DNA of 64,000 bases from a virus. The stretch spans positions 53,754-117,753 of the IMG/VR virus record IMGVR_UViG_3300021962_000040. One strand, 5' to 3'. Position 1 is the stretch's first letter. Each line of letters opens with the position of its first letter. The translations under genes were made by a program, and so were the position numbers. The notes under the pieces were generated by a model. The model made no database searches and was not told the origin of the DNA. It worked only from the letters and a program-made list of their open reading frames with translations. Of this stretch, positions 17,552 through 42,656 are shown piece by piece.

Positions 17552-20500
17552 ATGGCTGATAATATTACTCAACAACTAGAGCAAAATGGGGCTTTACCAA
17601 GTGCGGAGCCTATGATTCCTTCAAGCGGTAGATTTGATTATCAACCGGTTGCTGATTTATTGTTACCTCCCAACACTCCTGAGTTTACGGAGCTGATGAC
17701 CCCGGAGTATAAAGCAATGCTTGAAAGGCACGCAAGTCAAATTAATAGTTTTGCTCCTGCTGCTATTGGTAATTTAAATGACCCTAATCCAACATTAGCT
17801 ACAGATACCCTTAATCCTTTTAGACAAAAGGTTGGTTTAGATTTATCTACACCTGAAGGTAAGATGCAGTTGTTTAGAAATGCTGGAATGAGTGCTAAAC
17901 CTACAGGTGAAGTAAAAATTGCAGATCCTTTATATGCTGGTATTAGATCACATAACTTTGATAGATACTATAAGCATGCTGAGTTTTCTAATTTAGGTTG
18001 GCATCCTTATGCAAATAATGAGGAGACTTACAATGCAAACTCTTCTTGGTGGGATGATGCTGGCCGTATGATGGGTCAGTTTACAGGTTTAGCAGGTACA
18101 GGTTTTGTTTCAGCTTATAGATCTATTGGTGATTTATTTGATGATGATGATTATTTTACAGGAACTGATTTAACATCAGCTTCTGAATTTGCTGATGCAA
18201 TGCGTATTGGTAATTCTACAAGAGGTGGTTTTGGTGGTGGACTCAATAATTTATTATTACAGTCTGGTTATACAATGGGTGTAATTGGATCTATTGCTGT
18301 AGAAGAACTTGCCTTATGGGGAGCTGCTGCTGCACAAGGTGGTCTGAACCCTGTATCAGATGCGGCTGCTGTAAGCAGAACTGGTTGGAACATTGCTAGA
18401 CTTGGTAAGACAATTGCTAATACATTTGATTTAAGTAGACTTACCAATGCAACTAGAAATATGTATAGAGGACTTAGATCTGTTGATTCAGCTAAGGATG
18501 TATATACAGGATTTAAAGCAGGCGGAAGATTTTTGGCAGATGTTATTGCTCCAGAAACTGCACAAGCAATTAGAAGTTTAACTAGTACAGCTAATGGTGC
18601 TCAGAACTTGAGCAATATGGCTAAGGTTGCTAAAACCTTTGGAGGCTTTTATAGAGATTTGAGATCTTTGAATTTGGCACTTGCTGAATCTAAGATGGAA
18701 GGTGGTATGGTTTATCAACAACAGTTGGCAAATGGTTATGCACTTAAAACTCAAATGAATAATGGACAGCCTTTAGATGAAGCTCAAATGAACGATGTTG
18801 TTGAAAAAGCATCAAGAGCTGCTTACTATACTACATTATTGAATGCTCCAACTATTTATCTTTCTAACCAACTTGTATTAGGTAATGCATTTGGTGCATA
18901 CAATAGAACTTTATCAAGAGTACTTCAAGATAATGTTGAAGGTCTTGGTAGAAGAGTTATTAAAACACAAGGAACTAGAGTAGCCGGTAAAATGGCAACT
19001 AGACCTTTTGCTGATGCAGGAACGGGTGTTGTTGGATATTTGAATAGAATGAAAGCTGCTGGTGTAACTGGTAGTGCAAAGATGGCTGCACAAGCTTCTT
19101 TAAGATACTTTTCAGCAAACTTATCTGAAGGTCTTCAGGAAGTTGCACAGGAAGCTATTGCTGTTGGTACTAAAGGATATCACCAAGCATTATTAGAAGA
19201 TCCAGCTTCAGGAGGTAGAGACTTATTAATGGGTACAATTTCTTCAGCTGTTGGTTCTCAGTTTAGTGCTCAAGGTTTTGAAACCTTTATGTCTGGATTT
19301 ATGATGGGAGGTATTGTACAAGGACCTCAAAAATTATTCTTCCAAGGTGTACCTACTTTGTATCAAAAGACTTTTGAGAAAACAAAGTATGAAGAGTACA
19401 GAAAGAATAAGCAAGAATTTATTGATGGATTAGTTAAATCAATGAATGATACATATGAGGTTACTGCAAATAACCCAATGGAATCAATCTTTGATACCAA
19501 CAAAACAAACTTAGTTACACAAAAGCAAGCCTCTGTAGATATGATGCAAGCTGCTTTTGACCAATCTAATTTTGATTTTGTGGATGCAAAAGACTTTTCT
19601 AAGTTCCAAGCAATCTACACAGTACTTGCAAATGATAAAGGTGGTGAATTCAAATCTCAATTTGAAGACTACCTTAAAATGACAGATCAAGAATTAGCAG
19701 AAGCTTTCCCTACAGCAAAATCTGAGGTTAAGTCAGGTAAGCTAAGACAGAGAATGCAAGATATGATTAGCAAGATTGATGAACTTGAAGAATCATATTA
19801 TGTAAATAAATCTAAATTCAACAATCCTTTTGATGCTTCTATCTATAAGTTTGGATCAAGAGAATGGAATGAAGAGAAGATCAAACAAATGTCTTTTGAA
19901 CATGCAAGATATCTTTACATGTTTACTGAAGATGGTTTCAAAAGAGCTGTTGAAAGATCACAAAAAATTTATGATGAACTAGCTGCTGATCCTATTGTAG
20001 GTAAAATGGCAGCAAGTGATATCACCGTATTACTTGATGAGAACAGTCTTCAAAAAGAAATTGCAACATTACTTGCTGAGATTGGAACTTTAGATGCAAA
20101 AGAAAATAAAGATCTAATTGATTCAAAGACTGCAAAGCTTGAAGGTCTTAACGGCATCCTTTCTGTATTATATGCAGAAGAGAATATTACCAAGGATGGT
20201 GCTTTTGACAGACGTAAAGTAGGTAAGTTAAGAGGAGCATTTGAAAAGTATGTACAGAAACTTGCAAAGAGCAATGATTCTTTCAGTGATCCTGATAAAG
20301 TTTCTGAGGCATTAAAGAAGATTGTAGACTACCGTGAATTAAAAGGTAGAGCTATTGCTTATAATAAGTCTATTGAGTACATGAACAACCCTGAAAGATT
20401 TGATGAAATCCGTAAGAGAAGTTATGACTTCATGAAAAATATCTACAAGAATAGAGCAGAGGTTTTCAGAAAATCAGTAAAGAGTTATGTTGGCAAGATT

Positions 20501-23500
20501 GAAATCAATCAATTCTTAAATGAACTTGCAAAACTGGAAGTATATCCAGATCCAAAAGAAGTTGCTGAGTTTATGAGCAATGGTGATGTAGAAGTACTAA
20601 AAACTTTCTTCACTGAGAATGGTGTTGTCAATCAAGTATCTGATGAAGATATCTATAATGAGATTCAAGCCTTAATCAATATTTACAAATCAGCTGTAAC
20701 TCCACAAGCTACAGAACAAACTGCTGAAGAAAAGATTGATTCTAAAGAAAAGCAAACTAGAAAGAAAGACACTGCTGATATTTTATCAGAAGCAGATCTT
20801 GCTGAGGATACTCCTGAAGTAGAAATATTTGGTACAAAGGAAAATGATAATCCGGTTATTAAAGAGGTACTTGAAGAGAAATATAAAGAGTATGTAAACC
20901 GTCAAGCTAACTTAGGTCAAGTTCCTGTTCAAATGGATACTTGGGTTAATAGTGCTGAGGCAGCTAAGTATATTACTTCATATGAGGCTTTAAAGAAACT
21001 TTGGTATAAAGAACTTCAGAAGACTGGTGAGAAGGCTGAGGCAATTACTGGTAAGTTTAATTCTGATACTGGCTTTAAAGATTGGTTGCAGAAACAACAA
21101 ACCAATGACCTTGTTAGAAAGGTGTTGAAAAGCACAGAAACAAACTTCTCTGACTTTGTAGAAATAGAACAAGACTTTGAAGCAGGGGATGTAGAGGATG
21201 CTGATATTGGAGATGTAAAAGCTGTTGGTAAAGTAATAGACAATACTTTCAATAGTGTGCAGATTGTTGAGACTAAAACATCAATTGTAGATCCTGAGAC
21301 AGGTATGCCTGTTCCAGTTACTCTTTACTCTGTAAGAGATAAAAAGGGTAAACTATTGACTGAAGATAAAACATCTGCAGCCGGTGTATCTGCTGGTGCA
21401 ACATTTGATAATATCAATAAAGCTAGATCAGCTGCTAAGAAACTTGATGATGTATCAGTTGATACTACATCATTCCCATTTGGTGGAATGCAGGTTTCTT
21501 ATGGTGCAACTGTAACTGATAAAGAAGGTAACCGTTACATGGTTATTGGTACACCTGCTGAGGTTGAGAAAGGTAAAAAGCTTTTCTTACTTCCTGTAGA
21601 TGAAATCAAACCTGGTCAATCTAAACAAGATAGAAACAAGTTATCTAAGAAAGTAACTGAGGTAGAATTTAAGAATGATTTTACAGTAGATTCTTTCAAC
21701 TTTAGTAGAGTTCCAAAAGATGCTTCTAGACTATTGATTAATGAAGCTATTGAAGTTTATCCATTAGAAAATGGAATGGGTACTGCTGCAACAGAAGGTA
21801 TCTTAATGGCTAATGCTAGACTTCAAACTATTTTAGAAAACTTAAGTCCTGAAGAGAAAGCAACTCTTACATTGGTAATCAAAAGAAATCCTAATGGTGG
21901 TAAATCTACAGGTAAAAAATATCAGACAAGAGATGAGGAGGGTAACTTTAAAGAAGCAAACCCATACATTAATAGAGTATCTGAACCATTTGCTGTAGGT
22001 ATTGCTTTTGGAAATCAAGTTACTGCAAGTAGAATCAATCAGATTATATCTGAAAAAGGTATGGTCCCAAGTTCACATCCTGATGGGATATTTGCATTTG
22101 TAAGAACAGGTTCTATTCAGTTCTTAAATGATAAGAATCAAGTTGTTAATCCTTTGAATCTTACTAAGGAGATTATTGAGAATACCTTTACAATTTATCC
22201 TTCACAACAAGCAAATGCTGTTAACACAGTTGTTAACAATTTTGCAATTCAACAAGCTTTTGTTGATCAAGTTGCAGATAAGATGGAAGGACAGGATTCT
22301 GCAATTATTCCTATGACAGAATTTTCTGAGTTTGGATTTAATCTTGGATCTAGTGTTGATTTAAAGAGCAACCCAAAATCAGTTAAGGAACTTAAGTACA
22401 ATACAGTTGATGGTGTAAGAGTTCTTTTAATTAATGATAGATTAAAAGACGGGACTATATCAACACGTATTCTTGCTGACATTGAAGACATTGATGAGAG
22501 AGAAGCTTTTGTTGAGAAATTAAAAGGTGATCTTGCTATTTCACAACCCGGCTTATTTGAAAGCTTACAGAAGTCTCAGAGATATGTTGCTATAATTAAA
22601 ACTCCTAATGGTATTTATACAGGTGCTCCGCTTAAGAGTGAGAGACTTGATCAAAATGCAATTTCAGAATTAGGAAAAGAACTTGTTGCTGAAGGTATTA
22701 GAACTATCAATGCTAACTTAGAAGGTGACGGTTCTATTGAAACTAAAACTATAAAAGATAAAAACTTCAATGTTGAGTTTAACAAAGCATTTAATAAAAA
22801 GCTTTACATCACAACAAACATTGAAGGTTATACTGTTGAGATTAATGTTAACTCAGATGGTACCTTTAGAGCTGAGCTCTATGATAAAAAAGGTAAAGCT
22901 CTTATTGGTAGCTCATACTTAGCAGAGGGCCGTCAAGGAACTCTTGATTATGAAGGTCAAGAGAATCCTGATATCATAGAAAGATTATTAGATAATCTTC
23001 AGAAGAAAGGTATTGAGGCTAAGATCAAAGACATTGAAGCTCAAAAGAAAAAAGGAGCTAAAGTAGAAATCCCAGAGTGGACTAAGCTTAAGCTTTCTGT
23101 TAATAATGTAAGAGCATCTTTTGAAGAAGATGCTACTATTGATACAATTCTTGATAGCACAGTTACCAGTCTTAATGAAAATGTAAGAACTAATTACAAA
23201 CTAAGATTGAATGCTGACGCAAATGTAATTGCAGAAGCAATGTTATTTGCTTCTACTTCTACAGCAAATACTTTTGAAAATTTTGTTAATACGGGTGTTG
23301 TTCCTGAAGATGTTCTTTATGATATTGCTAATAAGATTAAAAATAATCAAACACTAACAACTGAAGAACAAGCAATCTTTACAGGTAAAACTTCAAGAAT
23401 TAATCAAATTCTAGTTGAACTCAAAAATGAAACTGCTGAAGAAGCTTATGACAGTGTTTTAGATATGTCAGATGAAGTATTTGAAGAATATGCTAAAGCA

Positions 23501-26500
23501 GACTTCAAAGAACTTCCTCTTGAGATGAAGCAGCAAGTTGCAAATAAAATTGCTAGAGGTGAAAAGCTTTCTACAAGAGAAGAAAGAATGGTGAAGAATG
23601 CTGTATCAGGACCAACCATTCAATTACTTGCAGGAAAAGCTCAAAGAGATAATAAAGTTGATGCTACAGCACAATCTCTTAAAACTGAATTGCAACAAAA
23701 CAAAGCAAGAATAAAAGAGATTGAAGCTGAGATTGACAATGCTGAACCTAACATGGTTAAAGCAAATGAGCTTATTGAAGATAATGAAGAAAGAGCTAAG
23801 TTAATTGCACGTAACAGGGAGATTGAAAGAAAGCTTCTTGCTAACAAGATCATCAGTGAAGAACTTACAGATACTGAAGTTGCTGGTATTGATGAGTTTG
23901 TATTATGGGCTAATGATAATTTGCCAGACTTTATTAGTATTGAGGATATTAATAACTTAAGAGACAACCTTGTTACCAATGGTGTAAGAGTTGGTGCTTT
24001 TGTTCTTTCTATGAATAACATTGCTGGAGGTATGAAAGTTAAAGGAACTTTGTATACTGGTGCTAAATCACCATACAAATTCCATGAGGCTTTCCACGGT
24101 GTGTTCAGATCTCTTCTTACAAATGCTCAACAAGATAAACTTTACAAGATTGCTGAAGCAGAAGTAAAGAGAAAACTTGGAAATAAATTTGAAGAAGAAT
24201 TAGAAAAGTTCAGAAATTCTGCAGACTCATATAAAGCTATGAGCAGAAAAGCTCTTGAGAAAGAGTTCTATGAAGAATACATGGCTGATGAGTTTGAGAA
24301 GTTCAAGAAGGATCCAAGATCTACTAAGACAGATTCTGCAATTAAGAACTTCTTTAACAGAATTATTGAGTGGATTAAATCTTTGTTTAACAGATACAGT
24401 CCTAATGAATTACAAGATCTATTTAGAAACATTGACTCAGGTAAATTTAAATCTGCTTCTCCAATCAACAATAGATTCACAGATAGTCTTGCAACAGGTG
24501 TTACTTTAAATGCCAATAAGATTATCCCAGTTGAATTAGTTGAAGGTGAAGGTGGTCAATTTGGATATAGAACTTTAGATAATGACTTTGCAAGAAGCAT
24601 TGTGTCTTCTATTTCTGCTAGAGTAATTATGCTTGAGCAAGAAAACAAAAATGCTAAGTTCAATTTGAAGCAAGCTGTTAATCAATCTTTTGCTTTATTC
24701 AAATCTTTATACAGTACTAAGAGAGAAGCATATAACTATATGTCTCTTACTGCAGATCAAAAAGGTAATTTAAGAGAGATTGAAAAAGCCTTTACAGACT
24801 TCTCTGATTTTATCAAGGATGCTGTATATGACGAGCTTAAGTATTACGAAATTAAATCAAGAAACATTGAAGAAGACAATGACGCAATGGATGATGAGGT
24901 TGGAGACAGACTACGTACAACAGATCAGTATGATAAAGATCTAACAAGTATTGGTGGTTTCTCTGCTTTGTCTTCTTTCTTGAGAAAATATATTGGTACA
25001 ACACCTATCACTGAAAAAGATGAGTTTGGTAATGATTATCTTATTGAACCACAGAGAGATGAGAAAGGTGAGATTGTTCCAGGCACTGGTGAGAAGTTAA
25101 TGATTACTGTAGATTTTGCTACAGCTTACAATGGTTTCTTAAAAGCCGTTAAGAATCTTAATGACCCTATTCAAATTTTGCAACAGTTATATTTCTTTGG
25201 TATTAATAACCCACAGACAGAAGCTGTTGTAAATAAATTATTTGCTGACTTAGGTATTCAATGGGAAGGTCAACTTGAAAATGGAGAGCTTCCTCAATAC
25301 ACAAGTGAAGTAATTGAAAAATTCAAGGCAGGTGAAATTATTACCGCTGAAGAATTAAATCAAGGTGTGAAAAGACCTTTATTATTACAAGCTGTATTGA
25401 AAGGTTTTGAAAATGCTAGAGTAGATTACTTATTCATTCACAGAAGTTCTGGAGATAAAGTATATACCTATACTGCTGCAAACAGAGATGATGCTCATAC
25501 ACAAGTTGATAGATGGGGACAAGCTTATATTCAAAAGGCTAAGACTCTAAGAACTAATGAAGGAGTTAGAACTGTTGTAGTAAATACTTTAGATAAATTA
25601 TTGAACAGACTTCAGTTTGTAGCGGGTGAAGGAACTACAAGTCAAAAAGCATTAAAGACTTTAACTGATACTAAGCTAAAAGAGTTTGCAGAACAAACAG
25701 CAAGAATTCTAGAAGAGAATGTAGGTATTAGCATTAGTCCTAAGTTCATTGAATTTAGTGTTGCTAAAAATATAGAGAAGCCTACAAGATATCAGAAGGC
25801 TTTGCTTAATGCAAATTCAGATGAAAGACCATTGAGCTACCAAGATGTTGTTGAGCTTAAAAAGATTATTGAAGCAAATCAAGATCTATATAGTGATTCT
25901 GAAGAAGGTGCTAAGAACAGACTTAGAAGAATTGCATTAGGTAATGCAGCCTTTGATGAGAACGTTGGATCATCTGTATTTAAGAACCCTAATGGAGACT
26001 TAGTTTATGCTCACCAATTACCATCATTCCACTTGAAGCAAATTCAATCATTGAATGATGTTGCAGGTGAGGGTGCTAAGATTGATGAGGTTAGAAACTC
26101 AGATGAATATTTATTGAATAACTTCTTGTTAAACAGTGAAGCTTTCAAACAGCTTTCTGCAGAAGGAAGATTAAGAATCTTGAGAATTGCCGGATCTAAA
26201 GTTGGTAATATAGACTTAGATGAAAATGGTTTGATGTCAGAAACATCTGGTGCTTCACCTTCTTCTGGTAAAACCTATGGTGATTCTACTCCAAGAGAGT
26301 TTATCATTAACTTGATTAATGCATACACCTACGCAATTGATCCATTAACTGGTAAAGTTGCAAGTGTGTCTTGGACTAAAGAAGATGGAACAATTGAACT
26401 AGCTGCTATTGCTCCTGTATTATTACGTGTACTTGAAGCATCTAATACAGGTGACATGATTGCTTTACCTGTGGTTAAAGCTGTGATGAAAAACAATGCT

Positions 26501-29500
26501 GGTAAAACTGTTCTTACAGAAACTGCAATAAACAGTATTGTAAACAATGTAGCTGCAGAGTTTGCAAGAATCCAAAAAGAATCTAATCCTGAGACAGCTA
26601 CTCAAGAATTGCATGTTGGTTACAATGCTCTTGCAATTCCTAATAGTGAAACAGGAACTGAAGAAATTATTCCTATCAATGTTGATAGCACTAATGTAAA
26701 TAAAGCAAGGGCCTTTAATTTCCATAAGACTGGAGTATTGTTAAATCCTCTTGGTCAAAAGAAAGAAAGCCGTCAAGGTATTGTTACAATTCAAACATCT
26801 GACATTAAGTTAGAGAGAATTCAAAAAGGAGAACAAACAGCTGTAGTCTATGACCAAAAAGCTGCTGAACAATTCATTGGTTTCACATCTGTTGGTGTTG
26901 TCAGAGATGCAATCATCAAAACTAAAGATGGAGAAAAGAATGTACCAATGAAGATTGTTGGTAGAGGTTTAGTTAGAGTAACTCCTGAAAACAGAGAAAG
27001 AATCTTTGAAGACCTTAAAGGTTCTATTTCCTTGATTAAAAATGATCAATTCAAATATGAGGTAAGACTTGGTACCAAGAAGTTCTATGTTGAATCTATT
27101 AATGAGCAACAGTTCTTACAGGGAAGAAAGCCTATGTATATGTATGAACTAATTGATGCTGAGCTTGCGGACTTTGAAGAGCAAACAGCAGCATTGATTG
27201 GTGGCTTTGATCAACAAGGATATCTTGATAAATTAACAGAAGCTGCACGTTCTCCAGAATATGCGGGTCTTACTTTCACAGAAGCTCTTACCAAACTTGG
27301 TATTAAAGAAGGTGAACTAAAAGCTTTCTTGGAAAACAGACTTAATCAAGAGTTCAATGAATTTAATATTGCATTGGATGAATTGATTGGCACTCAAGGT
27401 GGTTTAGGTACATTCTTATCTAATGGTATTCAAACTGGTAATGAAGCAGTAACTGCAGATACAATTAAAACCGGAAGACTTCTTAATATCTTACCTGAAG
27501 ATAAAGACTATAACCTTAGACAGATCTTCTTTAATGATTATATTAATACAACAGCAATCAACCAAATCTTATTGGGTGATAGTGCCTATAGTTTAAAAGA
27601 TGCTGTTGATGAGATTAAGAGAGCAAAAGCACAATCAGCATCTTACTATAGTGCTGCAAGTTCAATTGCTGCTCCTGAGTATGGTATTTACAAACCATTA
27701 CAAGAGTTCTCAATCTTTGAAATGACAGAACCTTCTGTTAATGCTACGCATAATCAAGGTGAAATCAAGAATGCAGATGCTCAGTTATGGATGACTACAA
27801 AAGCATTCCGTAATTTCCAGTACGGTTTTGGTAAACTTAGTCCTGCTCAAGCACAATTGTTTGATAGAGTTGAAAGAGGAGAGGATATTACAGCTGAAGA
27901 TATCTTTGGAACAGAGGAAGAATCTGGCTACGCTAAAAGACAAGAGATGCTTAACTCTCAAAAACTTGTGTATGCAGATGGAAAGACTTTTGTTAAGATG
28001 TCAGCATTCCCTCTTTTACCACAGTTTACTTCTATCAAAGATGAGAATGGAGAGTACACTATTCCTAAACCAAACAAGGTAGCTCTTCACAATTTAAGAG
28101 TTAAGCTTGAAGCATTTGAAAGAGAGAATGATACAGTTGCTGTAGCAGCTCCACGTTCTGCCTTGAAGATGATGCAGAAAAATGTATCTAACATTCATGG
28201 TGTTACAGGTACTGCCGCTCCTTTAACTAAACAACAATCAGTTACTCTTGATGCTAATTTCTTAGGATTACAAGTAATTAACCCTTCAAATAAAACAGTT
28301 ATCACTGATCCTACTCAAGTTAAATCACTTGTGACATCAGAACAAAATGATGCAACTGAAGTAGTAATCAATGGTGAAAAGTTAACTCTTGGTGAAGTAA
28401 GAGCTGCTTATCACAAAGCAACTAGAGATAGAGGTAACTTGAACTATATCAACAAAAGAAACTTGGTATTCTCTTTTGATATTGACTATGCAATGGATGA
28501 ACTTCATAAGAGTGTTAAAGAGAATGCAATTACTGCAGATCTATATACATACTTGAGATATGCTGAAGCTAGTCTTGCATCTAATGGTTCTTCAAGTCAC
28601 TTGATGGAATTGTTCTCTCTTGATGAATCAGGAAATCAAAAGTATAACTTGAATAATCCTCTTACTTATGATAAGTTCTTGAACTTGTTCATGAGCTATT
28701 TTAGTAAGAGTGTATTTAATGAAAAGGTTCCGGGTGCTACAATCTCTCTTGTTTCAGACTACGGTGTTAGAATTTACAGACGTGTTCTTTCAGTAGATGA
28801 AAATGGAATGCCTGATAAGCATGAGATTATTACTGAGGCTCAGTATGAAGCAATGGCTTCTAAGCCACAGATTTTATTTAATATTGACGAAGGAAGCTAT
28901 CCAGGTAATGATGAAAACTTAACGGGTCTTAAAGATGCTGTTAAAAAATCTAAAGGTGCCGGTGTTGTAATCATTGACCGTTTGAGACACAACATGAAAG
29001 AGTATAACTCAAAAGGAAAAGCAACTGGAGAAAAATATGGTGAGATGTTATTACCACCTCATCACAAAGAAGTAATGTCAGAACTTCAACAAAAAGGTAA
29101 GAGTATTCCTGATGTTGTTGGAAAGATGTTTGCTGTACGTATTCCTTCACAGGATAATCACTCAACCTATAACGTTAAGTGGGTTGACTTTATGCCTGCT
29201 GTTTATGGTTCATCTGGTGTATTTGCAAGAGAACTTATTGAGATATCAGGAGCTGACTTTGATATTGATAAGGTGTACACTCAATTCAAAGAGTTCTTTG
29301 AAAAGGGTGGAGAGTTCTTTGAATATGGTAAAGCCAAAACAGAAAAAGAACAATTTGAAGATTATGTACAATATGTAAATAAGAAAGTACAAGATACAGA
29401 TTCTATTTACGGTGAAGCTTTATACAAGTTCAAAGGAAGAGGTACAACTAATTCTTTGACTGCAGAACAAACACTTGGTGCAAGATCACAAGGATTTACA

Positions 29501-32500
29501 GAAGATGCAATCAATGCATTGTCAGTTCTTGGAATGCCACGTTTCTATGCTGAGTACTCTACCTATAGAAAGAAGTTTGGTCATGAACCATATGCAGCTG
29601 CAATCAACAATGATATTCTTGATTACAAGTTTGCATTGATGGGTAATGATAATGTTACAGAAAGAAAGCCTTTGTTCTTAGATAAGAATGGAAATACTAC
29701 AACTGTAAATACAGGTAAGCCAGCTCTAGATGAGAATGGTAAACAAAAGACAGCTGTTCCAATTTCTTATGAAGCTGCAGATATGGAAGTATTAAAAGAT
29801 CTTTGGGATGAACTAAAGACAGAACTTCCTGAATGGGCCGCATTATCTGAAGAAGAAGGTATTGATGTAGATAACCTTTATGGTAAGCTTAGAATGTTTG
29901 CTAATAACAAAGAAGGATCTAGATCAATTGGTGCTGTAGTATTACCTAACTTGTATTTGAACTTACTTCAAGAGTATGATGTCAAAATAGAAAGCATAAA
30001 AATTGCTGGTGAAGAAGTTATGCCTCAAATTAAATTTGGAGGTCTTACATTCAGCAGCTTTAAAAATACATATGAGTTATATGAGAATGGAAGTCAAGGT
30101 CAAAGAACTCAATATATCTTATCTGCTTTAATTACTGCAGCAACGGATAATGCCAAAGAAAGATTGTTGGCTAAGCTTGGTCTTAATATTAATGCCCTTT
30201 CTGTTGTAGCAAACTTAGTAGCTTTGGGTGTTCCAGTTAAGACTGGTGTACTTCTTATCAACCACCCTGTAATTAGGCAGGCTTACTTTGAAGAGACTAA
30301 CTCACCTGAAGATGAGCCAGTTACAGCGGCAAATATAATCAGAGATAGAATTGCATTATTACAATCAAGTTTCTTAGAGACTGAGGAACGTGGTAAGAGA
30401 ACTTCTGTTACTCAAAATGCTTTGATGCAATCTATTGAGGCTCCATTAATTAAACCTACAGCAACTGCTGAGGATATGGCTAACCTTAGAGAAAGCGGTG
30501 AAGTTGATAAGATAGATATCATTGAAGAAATTTCTATTCTAGAACAGTTCTTAAATGCTGCTAACTTATCTAACACTACAAGATACATGGGTGATCTATT
30601 AAATCTTACTAATGGATTAGGTCAAGGTCTTGAAGCAATTGATAAAAGAAATGCTGCAGTTGAAAAGCTGGGACTTAATCTTTCTAACAAAGACTACGCT
30701 GCATTAGGTGTTGATAAACCTATGATTGATGCTAGACCTATCTTTAAAGGTAATACATGGCAAGCAGGATATCTTGAAAGATTTGAAGAGTTCACCAATA
30801 ACTTATTACCTAAAGTTGTTCTTTCAGCAAGCCCTCTATTCAGAAGAGTTACTGATGAGATTGTATATCAAAGTACAATCAACAGCTTACCTTATGAGTT
30901 AAGAGATAGAGCTAAAACTAAAGTGGCAAAAGACTTTTTATCTTACTTAACTATTAAAGCTTACATGCATAATGGTATGGTAAATAATTCTCAGTCAGTT
31001 GCTACCTTAACAAATGGATTAATTTATAATCAAGAAGGTGTTGAGAATATCACTAAGGTTGTAGATAGATTACGTTCAATAGAAGACAATAAAAATAACT
31101 ACTTCTTGAATTCCTTTATTATTGCTGAGAAAGCAAGTCTTAAAGGTAACAAGACAGGTTTGAACTTGGCTAGTGCAAATACATTCCTGAGATACAATGA
31201 TTCTCAAAAGCTTGATATCCAAAATGGATTCATGACTTTATTTGCTAATCCATTGACTAGAGAAGATGCAAGAACATTGGTTAACTATATGATGGTTAAA
31301 GATGGTCTTCAGTATGGTTATAAATCACTAGTAGAAGCGGTTGCTCCAATTGCTCTTGACAATTACTTATCACATATTGATACAGTACAAGCTGCAATGG
31401 AAAGAACTGATGACGCAATATTTAAATCTACCTTTGGTGTTACCTTAGATGATTTGGTAATTCAATTCATGCAAGGCTATTTAACATCAGCTGCAAATGC
31501 TTATGTTATCAAAAGAGTTAAGGCTGCAATATATGCACCTGAAACTAAAGGTATCTTGGTTGAACCAAAAGTATACACAAAGAATCTTGCTGCTGCAAAT
31601 CCAGAAGCTATCTATGTATTTGGTGATAACGTTGCAAAGCAAGGTAGTGTAGGAAATAGTTCTGTTAGAGGTTTAGAAAATGCCTTTGGTTTATTCTTTA
31701 AGAAAGATCTAAATAGAACTGAGTCTTCTTACTATACAAATGCTGAAGCTGGTGACTTCATCACAATATTTGATGAGCAAGTAGAGCAATTAACAAATAT
31801 GATTGCTGAAGGAAAACAAGTTATTTTCCCTAAAGACTTCATTACAACTCCTGAACTTGCAGACTTTAAAAAGAATAGCCCGGCTGTATTTGAATATGTA
31901 AAGGCTAAGCTTAAGCAAGATCTTAACTATAACATTGATCCTAAAGCAAAACTTACTGCAGAAGAGAAGAAAGAAAAAAGAGTTGCAGATCCTGCAATAC
32001 TTAGAGCTCCTGTACATGTTAATGCTTCAGGCTTGGTACCTAGATTGGTTGTAGACTTGTATGCTGGAATCACTAAAGTAGAGAGAAATGAAGCTGTATC
32101 AGCAATTAGAAATACTCCAGCTGGTTCAAAGCTTACTAAACAATTGGCAGATACATTCTCAAGAAATAAGAAGGCTTTAAGAAAAGCAGGTTTTAGAAAT
32201 CTTATCAACTTGAAAAAAGGTTCTGACTATCATACTGAAGTTGAATTTCCAATGGTAATCAGACAGAATGTTGGATCAGACTATAAAGCTGAATACAAAT
32301 ACTACATCCTTACTAAAACTCAAAGCTTGTTCCCTAAAGCTAATCTGATTAACTTTAATAACAAAGCTGTTGGTAGTTATGCTGAATATGTAGAGGTAGA
32401 TATCAAAGGATCAACTTCACAGAATCCAATTGGATTTATGTTTGGTGAAAGACCTACAACTAAAGAATTAAGAAACTTTGTTAATAGTGTTAACTCAAAT

Positions 32501-33022
32501 GATCCTTTTGATGCAAACTTTGATTCAATTGATCTTGATGCTGCACTGGATGCAATTGATTTGGCACCTGGTATTGCTCTTTCTGCAAATGCTGTGGTAG
32601 TTGCAAATGAAAAAGGTATCCAAGTTGATGGTGAGAATATCAGCAAACTTGATCCGGCATCACAAGAGGTTGAGGCTAAGGATCTTGTAGAACCTGAAGT
32701 GGAGCCAACAGGTAATGAGGATCTATTTGATGAAGGTAAATCAATTGATATCTCTGCTAACTCATTCTTCTCAACACTTCTTGCTGACAATGATGCTGCG
32801 GAGAATAAATATCCAGAGTTAACAACTTGGTGGGATACTAATGTTGATGATCCATTTAGTCAACAAGCATTAGATAATAGAAACAAACTTAAAGCTCACA
32901 GAGATAATGCTGATATGAAGTTCAAAGTTACAGACTTAGATGACTTTATCCAGATGTTTGAAGATAGTGAGTTCACAAATGAACAAGAATTTTTAGATCA
33001 CTTTAATAATTGTTATCTTTGA
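17552..33022 (+). CDS. Giant virion RNA polymerase fused to a zincin metallopeptidase domain
   Basis: A single uninterrupted ORF of 5156 residues. Residues 1-700 have Gly-rich hydrophobic stretches that could insert into membranes during ejection. A zincin motif lies at H2178-E-A-F-H2182, with a downstream EEYMADEF helix giving a likely third ligand. The RNA polymerase core lies around 3700-3910: K3725-VPG of the first double-psi barrel, a GEMLLPPH segment, then VRIPSQ and finally D3902-F-D-I-D3906-K, matching the metal-binding DxDxD of the second barrel. Near residue 4690 a YVFGDN domain follows, of a type seen in phage proteins. In crAss-like phages this polymerase is carried in the virion and transcribes early genes; the zincin may process the polyprotein. 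Domain calls are firm, processing is inferred. Confidence 0.92.
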   Translation: MADNITQQLEQNGALPSAEPMIPSSGRFDYQPVADLLLPPNTPEFTELMTPEYKAMLERHASQINSFAPAAIGNLNDPNPTLATDTLNPFRQKVGLDLSTPEGKMQLFRNAGMSAKPTGEVKIADPLYAGIRSHNFDRYYKHAEFSNLGWHPYANNEETYNANSSWWDDAGRMMGQFTGLAGTGFVSAYRSIGDLFDDDDYFTGTDLTSASEFADAMRIGNSTRGGFGGGLNNLLLQSGYTMGVIGSIAVEELALWGAAAAQGGLNPVSDAAAVSRTGWNIARLGKTIANTFDLSRLTNATRNMYRGLRSVDSAKDVYTGFKAGGRFLADVIAPETAQAIRSLTSTANGAQNLSNMAKVAKTFGGFYRDLRSLNLALAESKMEGGMVYQQQLANGYALKTQMNNGQPLDEAQMNDVVEKASRAAYYTTLLNAPTIYLSNQLVLGNAFGAYNRTLSRVLQDNVEGLGRRVIKTQGTRVAGKMATRPFADAGTGVVGYLNRMKAAGVTGSAKMAAQASLRYFSANLSEGLQEVAQEAIAVGTKGYHQALLEDPASGGRDLLMGTISSAVGSQFSAQGFETFMSGFMMGGIVQGPQKLFFQGVPTLYQKTFEKTKYEEYRKNKQEFIDGLVKSMNDTYEVTANNPMESIFDTNKTNLVTQKQASVDMMQAAFDQSNFDFVDAKDFSKFQAIYTVLANDKGGEFKSQFEDYLKMTDQELAEAFPTAKSEVKSGKLRQRMQDMISKIDELEESYYVNKSKFNNPFDASIYKFGSREWNEEKIKQMSFEHARYLYMFTEDGFKRAVERSQKIYDELAADPIVGKMAASDITVLLDENSLQKEIATLLAEIGTLDAKENKDLIDSKTAKLEGLNGILSVLYAEENITKDGAFDRRKVGKLRGAFEKYVQKLAKSNDSFSDPDKVSEALKKIVDYRELKGRAIAYNKSIEYMNNPERFDEIRKRSYDFMKNIYKNRAEVFRKSVKSYVGKIEINQFLNELAKLEVYPDPKEVAEFMSNGDVEVLKTFFTENGVVNQVSDEDIYNEIQALINIYKSAVTPQATEQTAEEKIDSKEKQTRKKDTADILSEADLAEDTPEVEIFGTKENDNPVIKEVLEEKYKEYVNRQANLGQVPVQMDTWVNSAEAAKYITSYEALKKLWYKELQKTGEKAEAITGKFNSDTGFKDWLQKQQTNDLVRKVLKSTETNFSDFVEIEQDFEAGDVEDADIGDVKAVGKVIDNTFNSVQIVETKTSIVDPETGMPVPVTLYSVRDKKGKLLTEDKTSAAGVSAGATFDNINKARSAAKKLDDVSVDTTSFPFGGMQVSYGATVTDKEGNRYMVIGTPAEVEKGKKLFLLPVDEIKPGQSKQDRNKLSKKVTEVEFKNDFTVDSFNFSRVPKDASRLLINEAIEVYPLENGMGTAATEGILMANARLQTILENLSPEEKATLTLVIKRNPNGGKSTGKKYQTRDEEGNFKEANPYINRVSEPFAVGIAFGNQVTASRINQIISEKGMVPSSHPDGIFAFVRTGSIQFLNDKNQVVNPLNLTKEIIENTFTIYPSQQANAVNTVVNNFAIQQAFVDQVADKMEGQDSAIIPMTEFSEFGFNLGSSVDLKSNPKSVKELKYNTVDGVRVLLINDRLKDGTISTRILADIEDIDEREAFVEKLKGDLAISQPGLFESLQKSQRYVAIIKTPNGIYTGAPLKSERLDQNAISELGKELVAEGIRTINANLEGDGSIETKTIKDKNFNVEFNKAFNKKLYITTNIEGYTVEINVNSDGTFRAELYDKKGKALIGSSYLAEGRQGTLDYEGQENPDIIERLLDNLQKKGIEAKIKDIEAQKKKGAKVEIPEWTKLKLSVNNVRASFEEDATIDTILDSTVTSLNENVRTNYKLRLNADANVIAEAMLFASTSTANTFENFVNTGVVPEDVLYDIANKIKNNQTLTTEEQAIFTGKTSRINQILVELKNETAEEAYDSVLDMSDEVFEEYAKADFKELPLEMKQQVANKIARGEKLSTREERMVKNAVSGPTIQLLAGKAQRDNKVDATAQSLKTELQQNKARIKEIEAEIDNAEPNMVKANELIEDNEERAKLIARNREIERKLLANKIISEELTDTEVAGIDEFVLWANDNLPDFISIEDINNLRDNLVTNGVRVGAFVLSMNNIAGGMKVKGTLYTGAKSPYKFHEAFHGVFRSLLTNAQQDKLYKIAEAEVKRKLGNKFEEELEKFRNSADSYKAMSRKALEKEFYEEYMADEFEKFKKDPRSTKTDSAIKNFFNRIIEWIKSLFNRYSPNELQDLFRNIDSGKFKSASPINNRFTDSLATGVTLNANKIIPVELVEGEGGQFGYRTLDNDFARSIVSSISARVIMLEQENKNAKFNLKQAVNQSFALFKSLYSTKREAYNYMSLTADQKGNLREIEKAFTDFSDFIKDAVYDELKYYEIKSRNIEEDNDAMDDEVGDRLRTTDQYDKDLTSIGGFSALSSFLRKYIGTTPITEKDEFGNDYLIEPQRDEKGEIVPGTGEKLMITVDFATAYNGFLKAVKNLNDPIQILQQLYFFGINNPQTEAVVNKLFADLGIQWEGQLENGELPQYTSEVIEKFKAGEIITAEELNQGVKRPLLLQAVLKGFENARVDYLFIHRSSGDKVYTYTAANRDDAHTQVDRWGQAYIQKAKTLRTNEGVRTVVVNTLDKLLNRLQFVAGEGTTSQKALKTLTDTKLKEFAEQTARILEENVGISISPKFIEFSVAKNIEKPTRYQKALLNANSDERPLSYQDVVELKKIIEANQDLYSDSEEGAKNRLRRIALGNAAFDENVGSSVFKNPNGDLVYAHQLPSFHLKQIQSLNDVAGEGAKIDEVRNSDEYLLNNFLLNSEAFKQLSAEGRLRILRIAGSKVGNIDLDENGLMSETSGASPSSGKTYGDSTPREFIINLINAYTYAIDPLTGKVASVSWTKEDGTIELAAIAPVLLRVLEASNTGDMIALPVVKAVMKNNAGKTVLTETAINSIVNNVAAEFARIQKESNPETATQELHVGYNALAIPNSETGTEEIIPINVDSTNVNKARAFNFHKTGVLLNPLGQKKESRQGIVTIQTSDIKLERIQKGEQTAVVYDQKAAEQFIGFTSVGVVRDAIIKTKDGEKNVPMKIVGRGLVRVTPENRERIFEDLKGSISLIKNDQFKYEVRLGTKKFYVESINEQQFLQGRKPMYMYELIDAELADFEEQTAALIGGFDQQGYLDKLTEAARSPEYAGLTFTEALTKLGIKEGELKAFLENRLNQEFNEFNIALDELIGTQGGLGTFLSNGIQTGNEAVTADTIKTGRLLNILPEDKDYNLRQIFFNDYINTTAINQILLGDSAYSLKDAVDEIKRAKAQSASYYSAASSIAAPEYGIYKPLQEFSIFEMTEPSVNATHNQGEIKNADAQLWMTTKAFRNFQYGFGKLSPAQAQLFDRVERGEDITAEDIFGTEEESGYAKRQEMLNSQKLVYADGKTFVKMSAFPLLPQFTSIKDENGEYTIPKPNKVALHNLRVKLEAFERENDTVAVAAPRSALKMMQKNVSNIHGVTGTAAPLTKQQSVTLDANFLGLQVINPSNKTVITDPTQVKSLVTSEQNDATEVVINGEKLTLGEVRAAYHKATRDRGNLNYINKRNLVFSFDIDYAMDELHKSVKENAITADLYTYLRYAEASLASNGSSSHLMELFSLDESGNQKYNLNNPLTYDKFLNLFMSYFSKSVFNEKVPGATISLVSDYGVRIYRRVLSVDENGMPDKHEIITEAQYEAMASKPQILFNIDEGSYPGNDENLTGLKDAVKKSKGAGVVIIDRLRHNMKEYNSKGKATGEKYGEMLLPPHHKEVMSELQQKGKSIPDVVGKMFAVRIPSQDNHSTYNVKWVDFMPAVYGSSGVFARELIEISGADFDIDKVYTQFKEFFEKGGEFFEYGKAKTEKEQFEDYVQYVNKKVQDTDSIYGEALYKFKGRGTTNSLTAEQTLGARSQGFTEDAINALSVLGMPRFYAEYSTYRKKFGHEPYAAAINNDILDYKFALMGNDNVTERKPLFLDKNGNTTTVNTGKPALDENGKQKTAVPISYEAADMEVLKDLWDELKTELPEWAALSEEEGIDVDNLYGKLRMFANNKEGSRSIGAVVLPNLYLNLLQEYDVKIESIKIAGEEVMPQIKFGGLTFSSFKNTYELYENGSQGQRTQYILSALITAATDNAKERLLAKLGLNINALSVVANLVALGVPVKTGVLLINHPVIRQAYFEETNSPEDEPVTAANIIRDRIALLQSSFLETEERGKRTSVTQNALMQSIEAPLIKPTATAEDMANLRESGEVDKIDIIEEISILEQFLNAANLSNTTRYMGDLLNLTNGLGQGLEAIDKRNAAVEKLGLNLSNKDYAALGVDKPMIDARPIFKGNTWQAGYLERFEEFTNNLLPKVVLSASPLFRRVTDEIVYQSTINSLPYELRDRAKTKVAKDFLSYLTIKAYMHNGMVNNSQSVATLTNGLIYNQEGVENITKVVDRLRSIEDNKNNYFLNSFIIAEKASLKGNKTGLNLASANTFLRYNDSQKLDIQNGFMTLFANPLTREDARTLVNYMMVKDGLQYGYKSLVEAVAPIALDNYLSHIDTVQAAMERTDDAIFKSTFGVTLDDLVIQFMQGYLTSAANAYVIKRVKAAIYAPETKGILVEPKVYTKNLAAANPEAIYVFGDNVAKQGSVGNSSVRGLENAFGLFFKKDLNRTESSYYTNAEAGDFITIFDEQVEQLTNMIAEGKQVIFPKDFITTPELADFKKNSPAVFEYVKAKLKQDLNYNIDPKAKLTAEEKKEKRVADPAILRAPVHVNASGLVPRLVVDLYAGITKVERNEAVSAIRNTPAGSKLTKQLADTFSRNKKALRKAGFRNLINLKKGSDYHTEVEFPMVIRQNVGSDYKAEYKYYILTKTQSLFPKANLINFNNKAVGSYAEYVEVDIKGSTSQNPIGFMFGERPTTKELRNFVNSVNSNDPFDANFDSIDLDAALDAIDLAPGIALSANAVVVANEKGIQVDGENISKLDPASQEVEAKDLVEPEVEPTGNEDLFDEGKSIDISANSFFSTLLADNDAAENKYPELTTWWDTNVDDPFSQQALDNRNKLKAHRDNADMKFKVTDLDDFIQMFEDSEFTNEQEFLDHFNNCYL

Positions 33023-39248: not shown

Positions 39249-39275
39249 AAAAAAAAGGGGAAGTTACCTTCCCCT
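39249..39275 (-). terminator. Intrinsic terminator between nrdA and the small zincin gene
   Basis: Read leftward, AGGGGAAG pairs perfectly with CTTCCCCT around a GTAA loop and is followed by eight U residues. The zincin start codon (39230) lies 18 nt beyond the U-run. Confidence 0.85.
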
Positions 39276-39280
39276 CTTGT

Positions 39281-41898: not shown

Positions 41899-41939
41899 AA
41901 AAAAAGCTGTGCATTATATCCCAAAAGATGTGCACAGCT
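41899..41939 (-). terminator. Intrinsic terminator in the nrdB leader (attenuator)
   Basis: Read leftward, AGCTGTGCA (41931-41939) pairs with TGCACAGCT (41905-41913), nine base pairs with a 17-nt loop, followed by seven U residues. It ends 25 nt before the nrdB ATG, leaving no space for a promoter between them. Confidence 0.85.
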
Positions 41940-42172
41940 AGTACATCTAATTTAGTAAAATTTAGTCTAGCTACCTAATCTTTCCAGAAAACTTTTATGA
42001 AAGAAAACTTGAAAAATAACAGACCTAGTTCCAAACCCCTGACGGGACTGTAACTATCATTGCTGCACAAAACGTGGCAGTTTATAAGCCTTAATCCTAT
42101 CAGAGGCTCTGTAGGTAAGAAGGAGAATGAAAATTGATTGTGGAAGTCCACTTTGTCTATGCTCATAAGATT
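41934..42172 (-). promoter_or_regulatory. Structured nrdBA leader with antiterminator helix (riboswitch-like)
   Basis: The region between the divergent nrdB and 42273 genes holds several local hairpins when read leftward: 42096-42115 (CCTA/TAGG with CAGA/TCTG), 42063-42080 (CTGC/GCAG), and 42037-42046 (CCC/GGG). Near its end, bases 41967-41974 can pair with 41934-41941 over eight positions (two G-U), which would occupy the first arm of the terminator and so act as an antiterminator. A TAAATTTG box at 42174-42181 could be the -7 element starting this leader. I do not recognise a known riboswitch class. Confidence 0.55.
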
Positions 42173-42173
42173 G

Positions 42174-42181
42174 CAAATTTA
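42174..42181 (-). promoter_or_regulatory. Possible Bacteroidota -7 box (TAAATTTG) for nrdBA
   Basis: Matches TAnnTTTG, the -7 consensus of Bacteroidota primary sigma factor promoters, placed where a transcript would begin just before the structured leader. No clear -33 TTG was found at the usual spacing, so the call is weak. Confidence 0.35.
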
Positions 42182-42222
42182 AAATATTTGATGAATTATA
42201 GTTAGAAAAAGATAAATTTATT

Positions 42223-42239
42223 TTGTATATTATAGTATA
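42223..42239 (+). promoter_or_regulatory. Candidate phage promoter (TTGTATATTA motif)
   Basis: TTGTATATTA followed by AGTATAC, 40 nt before the ATG at 42273. It is one of four similar rightward intergenic sites and would start the block of membrane and small basic proteins. Confidence 0.4.
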
Positions 42240-42272: not shown

Positions 42273-42656
42273 ATGGTATCAAGATTAAGAACAATACTTA
42301 CGTATTATGATTCAGAGCCTACTGAAGTTACTCAGGGGTTTATATGGATGATATTCTTCCCAATAATCCACACTATTGAGTGCGGTCTTAATTTATGGTT
42401 AGTAATTCCAAGTGTGCTTATAGGTTTAGCTTCAATTAAAGGAGCTTGTTCTCACACAGTTGCAGTAAGAAAAACATTAGGATTAGGAGTTTTCCTTTTT
42501 TCCATTGTGGTAATAACATACTACTTTTTGATAAAAAAATTACCCAGTGATGTAACTCATTGGGGCTGGGTACTAGTTTCACTTAGTGCCTTTTTTAATT
42601 TAAGAAGATTAACTAACCATTATTATTTGAAATACGGAAATGGCTGCAATAGATAA
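42273..42656 (+). CDS. Membrane protein of unknown function
   Basis: A 127-residue protein with about three to four hydrophobic segments (FIWMIFFPIIHTIECGLN, LWLVIPSVLIGLASI, GVFLFSIVVITYYFLI and GWVLVSLSAFFNL). I used the ATG at 42273; an in-frame TTG at 42264 is a weaker start. It is the first gene of a rightward block, divergent from nrdB, and overlaps the next gene by 17 nt. Its size and place among lysis-like genes make a holin-related or superinfection role possible, but no specific motif supports this. Confidence 0.65.
   Translation: MVSRLRTILTYYDSEPTEVTQGFIWMIFFPIIHTIECGLNLWLVIPSVLIGLASIKGACSHTVAVRKTLGLGVFLFSIVVITYYFLIKKLPSDVTHWGWVLVSLSAFFNLRRLTNHYYLKYGNGCNR

Follow-up and report, generated by a model that had tools for sequence, protein, structure and literature searches.

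The nrdB-nrdA operon of a crAss-like phage is preceded by a conserved and covarying terminator-type hairpin, and comparison of related upstream regions suggests, with somewhat better than an even chance, that this promoter-proximal intrinsic terminator acts as an attenuator of the operon, the transcription steps being predicted from sequence. The hairpin lies immediately behind a promoter-like element resembling those of the phage itself, is found only where nrdB heads its operon or follows that operon's usual small first gene, and is kept where this small gene is absent.

The window, i.e. the whole stretch of 64,000 nucleotides analysed here, belongs to a virus contig of 117,753 bases encoding a crAss-type major capsid protein (Pfam PF23898 Crass_capsid, 1.1e-32), confirming through protein homology the crAss-like affiliation proposed in the preliminary description; structural proteins gave no match in PHROG, and the capsid was identified by Pfam instead. 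Pfam domains also bore out the nrdBA genes that had been placed downstream of the leader (Table 1). Among annotated phages, no DNA similarity and no ORF63 match were found, and all NrdB matches were below 60% identity. Elsewhere in the window, a 5156-aa ORF (17552-33022) contains a DFDID sequence fitting the DxDxD motif expected for a crAss-like RNA polymerase, and is by this motif a candidate for that protein.

Table 1. Features of the nrdB-nrdA region, in window coordinates
Feature	Position	Strand	Details
terminator after nrdA, then promoter-like element	39251..39280	-	conventional terminator-then-promoter order
nrdA, RNR large subunit, 541 aa	39281..40906	-	PF02867, 2.8e-93
nrdB, RNR small subunit, 326 aa	40893..41873	-	PF00268, 1.1e-57
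U-tract directly 3' of stem	41899..41904	-	7 U counting the last stem base; T-run kept in both alignments
terminator-type hairpin, 9-bp outer stem	41905..41939	-	AGCUGUGCA...UGCACAGCU; nrdB upstream region; conserved and covarying
promoter-like element P2, ATTTTACTAAATTAGA	41946..41961	-	TAAATT box 41949-41954; start predicted at about 41942, some 3 nt ahead of the hairpin
ORF63, conserved 63-aa protein gene, no known family	41975..42166	-	adjoins nrdB upstream; conserved in relatives
host-type -7 box P1, TATCTTTT	42207..42214	-	upstream of ORF63; one mismatch to TAnnTTTG; read from sequence
phage promoter-like motif, TATTTTGTATATTATA	42219..42234	+	probably serves the divergent gene at 42273

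IMG/VR was scanned three times with NrdB queries, and the nrdB regions obtained were collapsed to 120 distinct upstream regions, 117 of them classifiable by their upstream neighbour. In the source phage, the hairpin (41939-41905) has a folding energy of about -14.5 kcal/mol and its U-tract ends at 41899, leaving 25 nt to the start codon of nrdB (41873, minus strand); among the leaders of relatives, the distance from hairpin to nrdB ranges from 22 to 48 nt. Across 27 marine leaders, 93% of the cells of the terminator helix are paired and 8 of its 12 pairs show double changes, and the covariation score of the helix reached 0.505, compared to at most 0.237 for slid-partner controls and unmatched by any of 500 shuffles. 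The 11 nearest leaders gave a similar picture (89% paired, with 6 of the 11 pairs showing double changes). This record of paired substitutions indicates that the hairpin is under selection. With a stable stem maintained by compensatory change and immediately followed by a U-tract, it represents a candidate intrinsic (Rho-independent) terminator, these features and their conservation being directly observed and termination itself predicted. The intrinsic terminator described 25 nt before nrdB was accordingly upheld by the homologous leaders, a comparison that had been proposed as a check and that returned covariation for the terminator stem and no other conserved structure. Two loci depart from this pattern: L280 and L281 keep ORF63 and a near-consensus P2, with a short hairpin and no U-tract.

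The region upstream of nrdB, this hairpin included, had been taken for a control RNA of about 270 nt; it is not an untranslated leader, as roughly 190 of these nucleotides are the 63 codons of ORF63, a conserved protein gene. Of the 120 distinct regions, 37 (36 of the 117 classified) have an ORF of about 62-65 codons immediately before nrdB and on its strand, and an alignment of 18 members revealed six invariant residues and 33-52% identity to the ORF63 of the window. A separate scan, which used a single protein because the aligned members diverged too much to serve as a profile, recovered 21 loci, with NrdB detected immediately downstream in 20. The predicted structure of ORF63 is small and all-beta (mean pLDDT 75). 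Searches of ORF63 against Pfam and PHROG returned no match, and fold searches yielded no significant match in the PDB, the top viral hit being an uncharacterised protein (TM 0.75, E 1.3e-3).

The terminator was detected in 47 of the 117 classified upstream regions, comprising 33 of the 36 leaders headed by ORF63, 14 of the 16 with a divergent neighbour, none of the 43 with another same-strand gene directly before nrdB and none of the 22 of unclear upstream class; these counts are not independent samples because of shared ancestry, which partly accounts for the association with the operon head, and of likely recombination involving leaders. Eleven leaders devoid of ORF63 still showed double changes at 5 of 12 pairs, with the terminator as their sole consensus structure. 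At individual loci, ORF63 is missing (L003) or reduced to a remnant (L089), and promoter-like elements, hairpin and U-tract are retained. On the NrdB tree, the presence of ORF63 changed at least eight times among loci that nearly all keep the hairpin. The history of some leaders appears to differ from that of the NrdB bodies behind them, which makes recombination between leader and nrdB gene body likely, and leaders seem to move in this way. The leader type of L036 and L089 conflicts with the position of their NrdB in the tree.

This distribution bears on an alternative function, in which the hairpin would be a gene-end or insulating terminator, closing the ORF63 transcript of the host polymerase while a phage-modified polymerase reads through from P2, with any effect on nrdB being incidental. 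Its location 3' of ORF63 in 33 leaders would fit such a role, as would the position of the other terminators of the source genome, also 3-60 nt before the next gene, and the presence ahead of the hairpin of an element resembling phage promoters. However, 14 leaders carry the hairpin without any same-strand gene ending before it, the 43 leaders that do have another such gene lack it, and compensatory change persists in leaders that lack ORF63 and have a divergent neighbour. Moreover, the other terminators of the genome precede a promoter-like element rather than follow one. We consider a gene-end role unlikely, and the contrast between 0 of 43 and 33 of 36 plus 14 of 16 leaders, together with covariation in the absence of ORF63, favours the attenuator over a plain gene-end terminator.

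The preliminary description was right that a promoter would not fit between the terminator and nrdB. Immediately ahead of the hairpin, however, sits a promoter-like element, P2. P2 (TTTnnTAAATT) resembles the promoter motif of the source phage itself (approximately TTTTTnGTAwATTATA), which was built from 11 intergenic sites of this phage. The core pattern of the motif occurred at 28 sites, versus 7 for a reversed control, summed over 10 records, and the motif recurs upstream of like-sized genes in seven genomes. With a matrix built solely from the other promoter-like sites of the phage, P2 ranked about 20th of 235k positions. Its core (TTT..TA.ATT) is near-invariant in relatives, and its matrix score was weak or undetected in genomes G001, G002, G004 and G006. 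Among the scored promoters, that of nrdB is the sole one with a strong hairpin directly after it, at z between -3.2 and -5.5, the others staying above -2. Farther upstream, P1 approaches the TAnnTTTG sequence known as the flavobacterial sigma-A -7 consensus (PMC9723704), and exact copies of TAnnTTTG were found upstream on the nrdB strand in 31 of 39 leaders, versus 7 of 39 for the reversed pattern. Two further candidates were discarded: a sigma-70-like promoter at 42256-42229 (minus strand) probably reflects a reverse reading of the divergent plus-strand phage motif, which it overlaps, and a palindrome around P2 (TCAATTT...AAATTGA), considered as a second hairpin, is 84% paired in the nearest set and not kept in marine relatives, so it was read as a promoter element.

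At two genes (window 14378 and L231:1624, the latter at window coordinate -32129), only about 5 nt separate the end of the motif from the ATG, and their mRNAs are predicted to be leaderless or nearly so. This spacing suggests that transcription begins some 6-7 nt beyond the TAwATT box. For nrdB, the start would then fall near 41942, with the hairpin at about +4. P2 transcripts are predicted to begin 3-10 nt before the hairpin, a proximity that would also suit a 5'-terminal mRNA hairpin shielding the nrdB mRNA from degradation, the U-tract being of lesser importance. A short conserved hairpin right after the promoter-like motif of a 412-aa phage gene, and the hairpins without U-tract of L280 and L281, point in the same direction. 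Yet a stabiliser would not need the U-tract that nearly all other leaders conserve, and the hairpin would be internal in P1 transcripts, making this protective role unlikely. Alternatively, a small non-coding RNA initiated at P1 or P2 could end at the hairpin, as ORF63-less leaders would then yield a short untranslated RNA; but such an RNA would be only about 45 nt long from P2, and sequence conservation is poor outside the promoter motif and the stem, so that we give this possibility very little credence.

The regulatory RNA initially envisaged was a riboswitch or ligand-sensing attenuator, responding to dNTPs or cobalamin through mutually exclusive terminator and antiterminator. Its appeal came from the terminator preceding an RNR operon and from an alternative helix (41967-41974 with 41934-41941) that can indeed form in the source phage, with eight pairs and a duplex energy of -8.0 kcal/mol, and that would be the prevailing fold of the growing transcript until the 3' arm of the terminator is synthesised. 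However, this helix is no better than chance (equal pairing in 27 of 200 shuffles) and is not conserved, showing no excess over 39 leaders (mean z 0.07), so the exclusive switch that had been deduced from it was not retained. Taken as a whole, the region of 391 nt forms a fold hardly more stable than those of shuffled sequences (z -1.4, with 8 of 100 shuffles as good). Searches of Rfam, at both gathering and permissive thresholds, gave no credible match, and neither an aptamer-like nor any other conserved structure was found upstream of the terminator, which stands alone in ORF63-less leaders. A conserved aptamer ahead of an expression platform is therefore lacking, as is a conserved antiterminator that would exclude the terminator in the compared leaders. 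As most of the region is coding, as transcripts from P2 would carry just a few nucleotides 5' of the hairpin, and as ORF63-less leaders show no other conserved structure, ligand sensing appears highly improbable. The broader proposal of a transcription-control RNA is supported as regards a control terminator, which covaries, is kept without an upstream same-strand gene and occurs only at the operon head, and is not supported as regards a ligand switch.

The attenuator remains our preferred reading, with a terminator located between a predicted promoter and the first structural gene, and tied to the operon. The nrdBA transcripts would start at the host-type P1, upstream of ORF63 where present, or at the phage promoter-like P2, about 10 nt before the hairpin, and both would cross hairpin and U-tract before reaching nrdB. 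A fraction of polymerases would stop at the U-tract, lowering nrdBA output until read-through rises. Since no alternative RNA fold is conserved, relief would most simply come from a phage factor or a phage-modified polymerase ignoring the terminator. The activity of P1 and P2, termination at the hairpin and regulated read-through are all inferred. Against the attenuator stand the modest genome-wide rank of P2 (about 20th), its weak or undetected score in four genomes, and the missing U-tract of L280 and L281.

Known systems offer partial parallels. In phage lambda, a terminator placed shortly after a phage promoter (pR'-tR') blocks the late operon until Q suppresses it. The nrdB leader is alike in its terminator shortly downstream of a phage promoter, here predicted, but tR' lies near +190, whereas the hairpin before nrdB in this crAss-like phage would lie about 4-10 nt after the predicted start (for lambda Q, see PMC7171158). 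The phage P7 protein makes polymerase ignore intrinsic terminators (PMC6624301). Antitermination of this type is a possible way to relieve the nrdB terminator. A two-polymerase logic is also conceivable, by likeness to the early terminator TE of T7, where the host polymerase stops and the phage polymerase reads on; unlike TE, the terminator described here would be part of the nrdB transcript itself, directly behind P2, and is linked to a single operon. Bacterial leader attenuators and riboswitches (trp type, nrdJ motif) likewise have a terminator in the leader that precedes a metabolic operon, but the nrdB leader has no conserved antiterminator or aptamer, and ORF63 is a conserved protein and no short leader peptide. 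Stem-loops of the ompA type, which stabilise mRNA from its 5' end, resemble the hairpin in position and differ by the conserved U-tract that follows the nrdB-leader stem.

If true, attenuation at this site would be a concrete and testable control point for dNTP supply in crAss-like phages. If a phage-modified polymerase passes the hairpin where the host polymerase stops, the leader would also provide a ready antitermination reporter for these phages. More speculatively, and on balance improbably, the first 45 nt or so of the nrdB transcript may form a termination checkpoint, directly behind a phage promoter, through which crAss-like phages control dNTP synthesis and which only phage-modified transcription complexes pass, within a module mobile between phages with or without ORF63. 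The analysis additionally predicts promoter motifs for the crAss-like phage group, for which a limited literature search found none described.

Two minor observations were made outside the nrdB leader. The short hairpin following the predicted promoter of the 412-aa gene (L231:17211) is of the form TGTGC...GCACA, lies directly after the promoter and has no U-tract; the same hairpin occurs at its likely counterparts in G001, G002 and G003, i.e. in four genomes in total. In L230, a sequence resembling a tRNA gene was noticed by eye immediately ahead of the gene located at window coordinate -39692.
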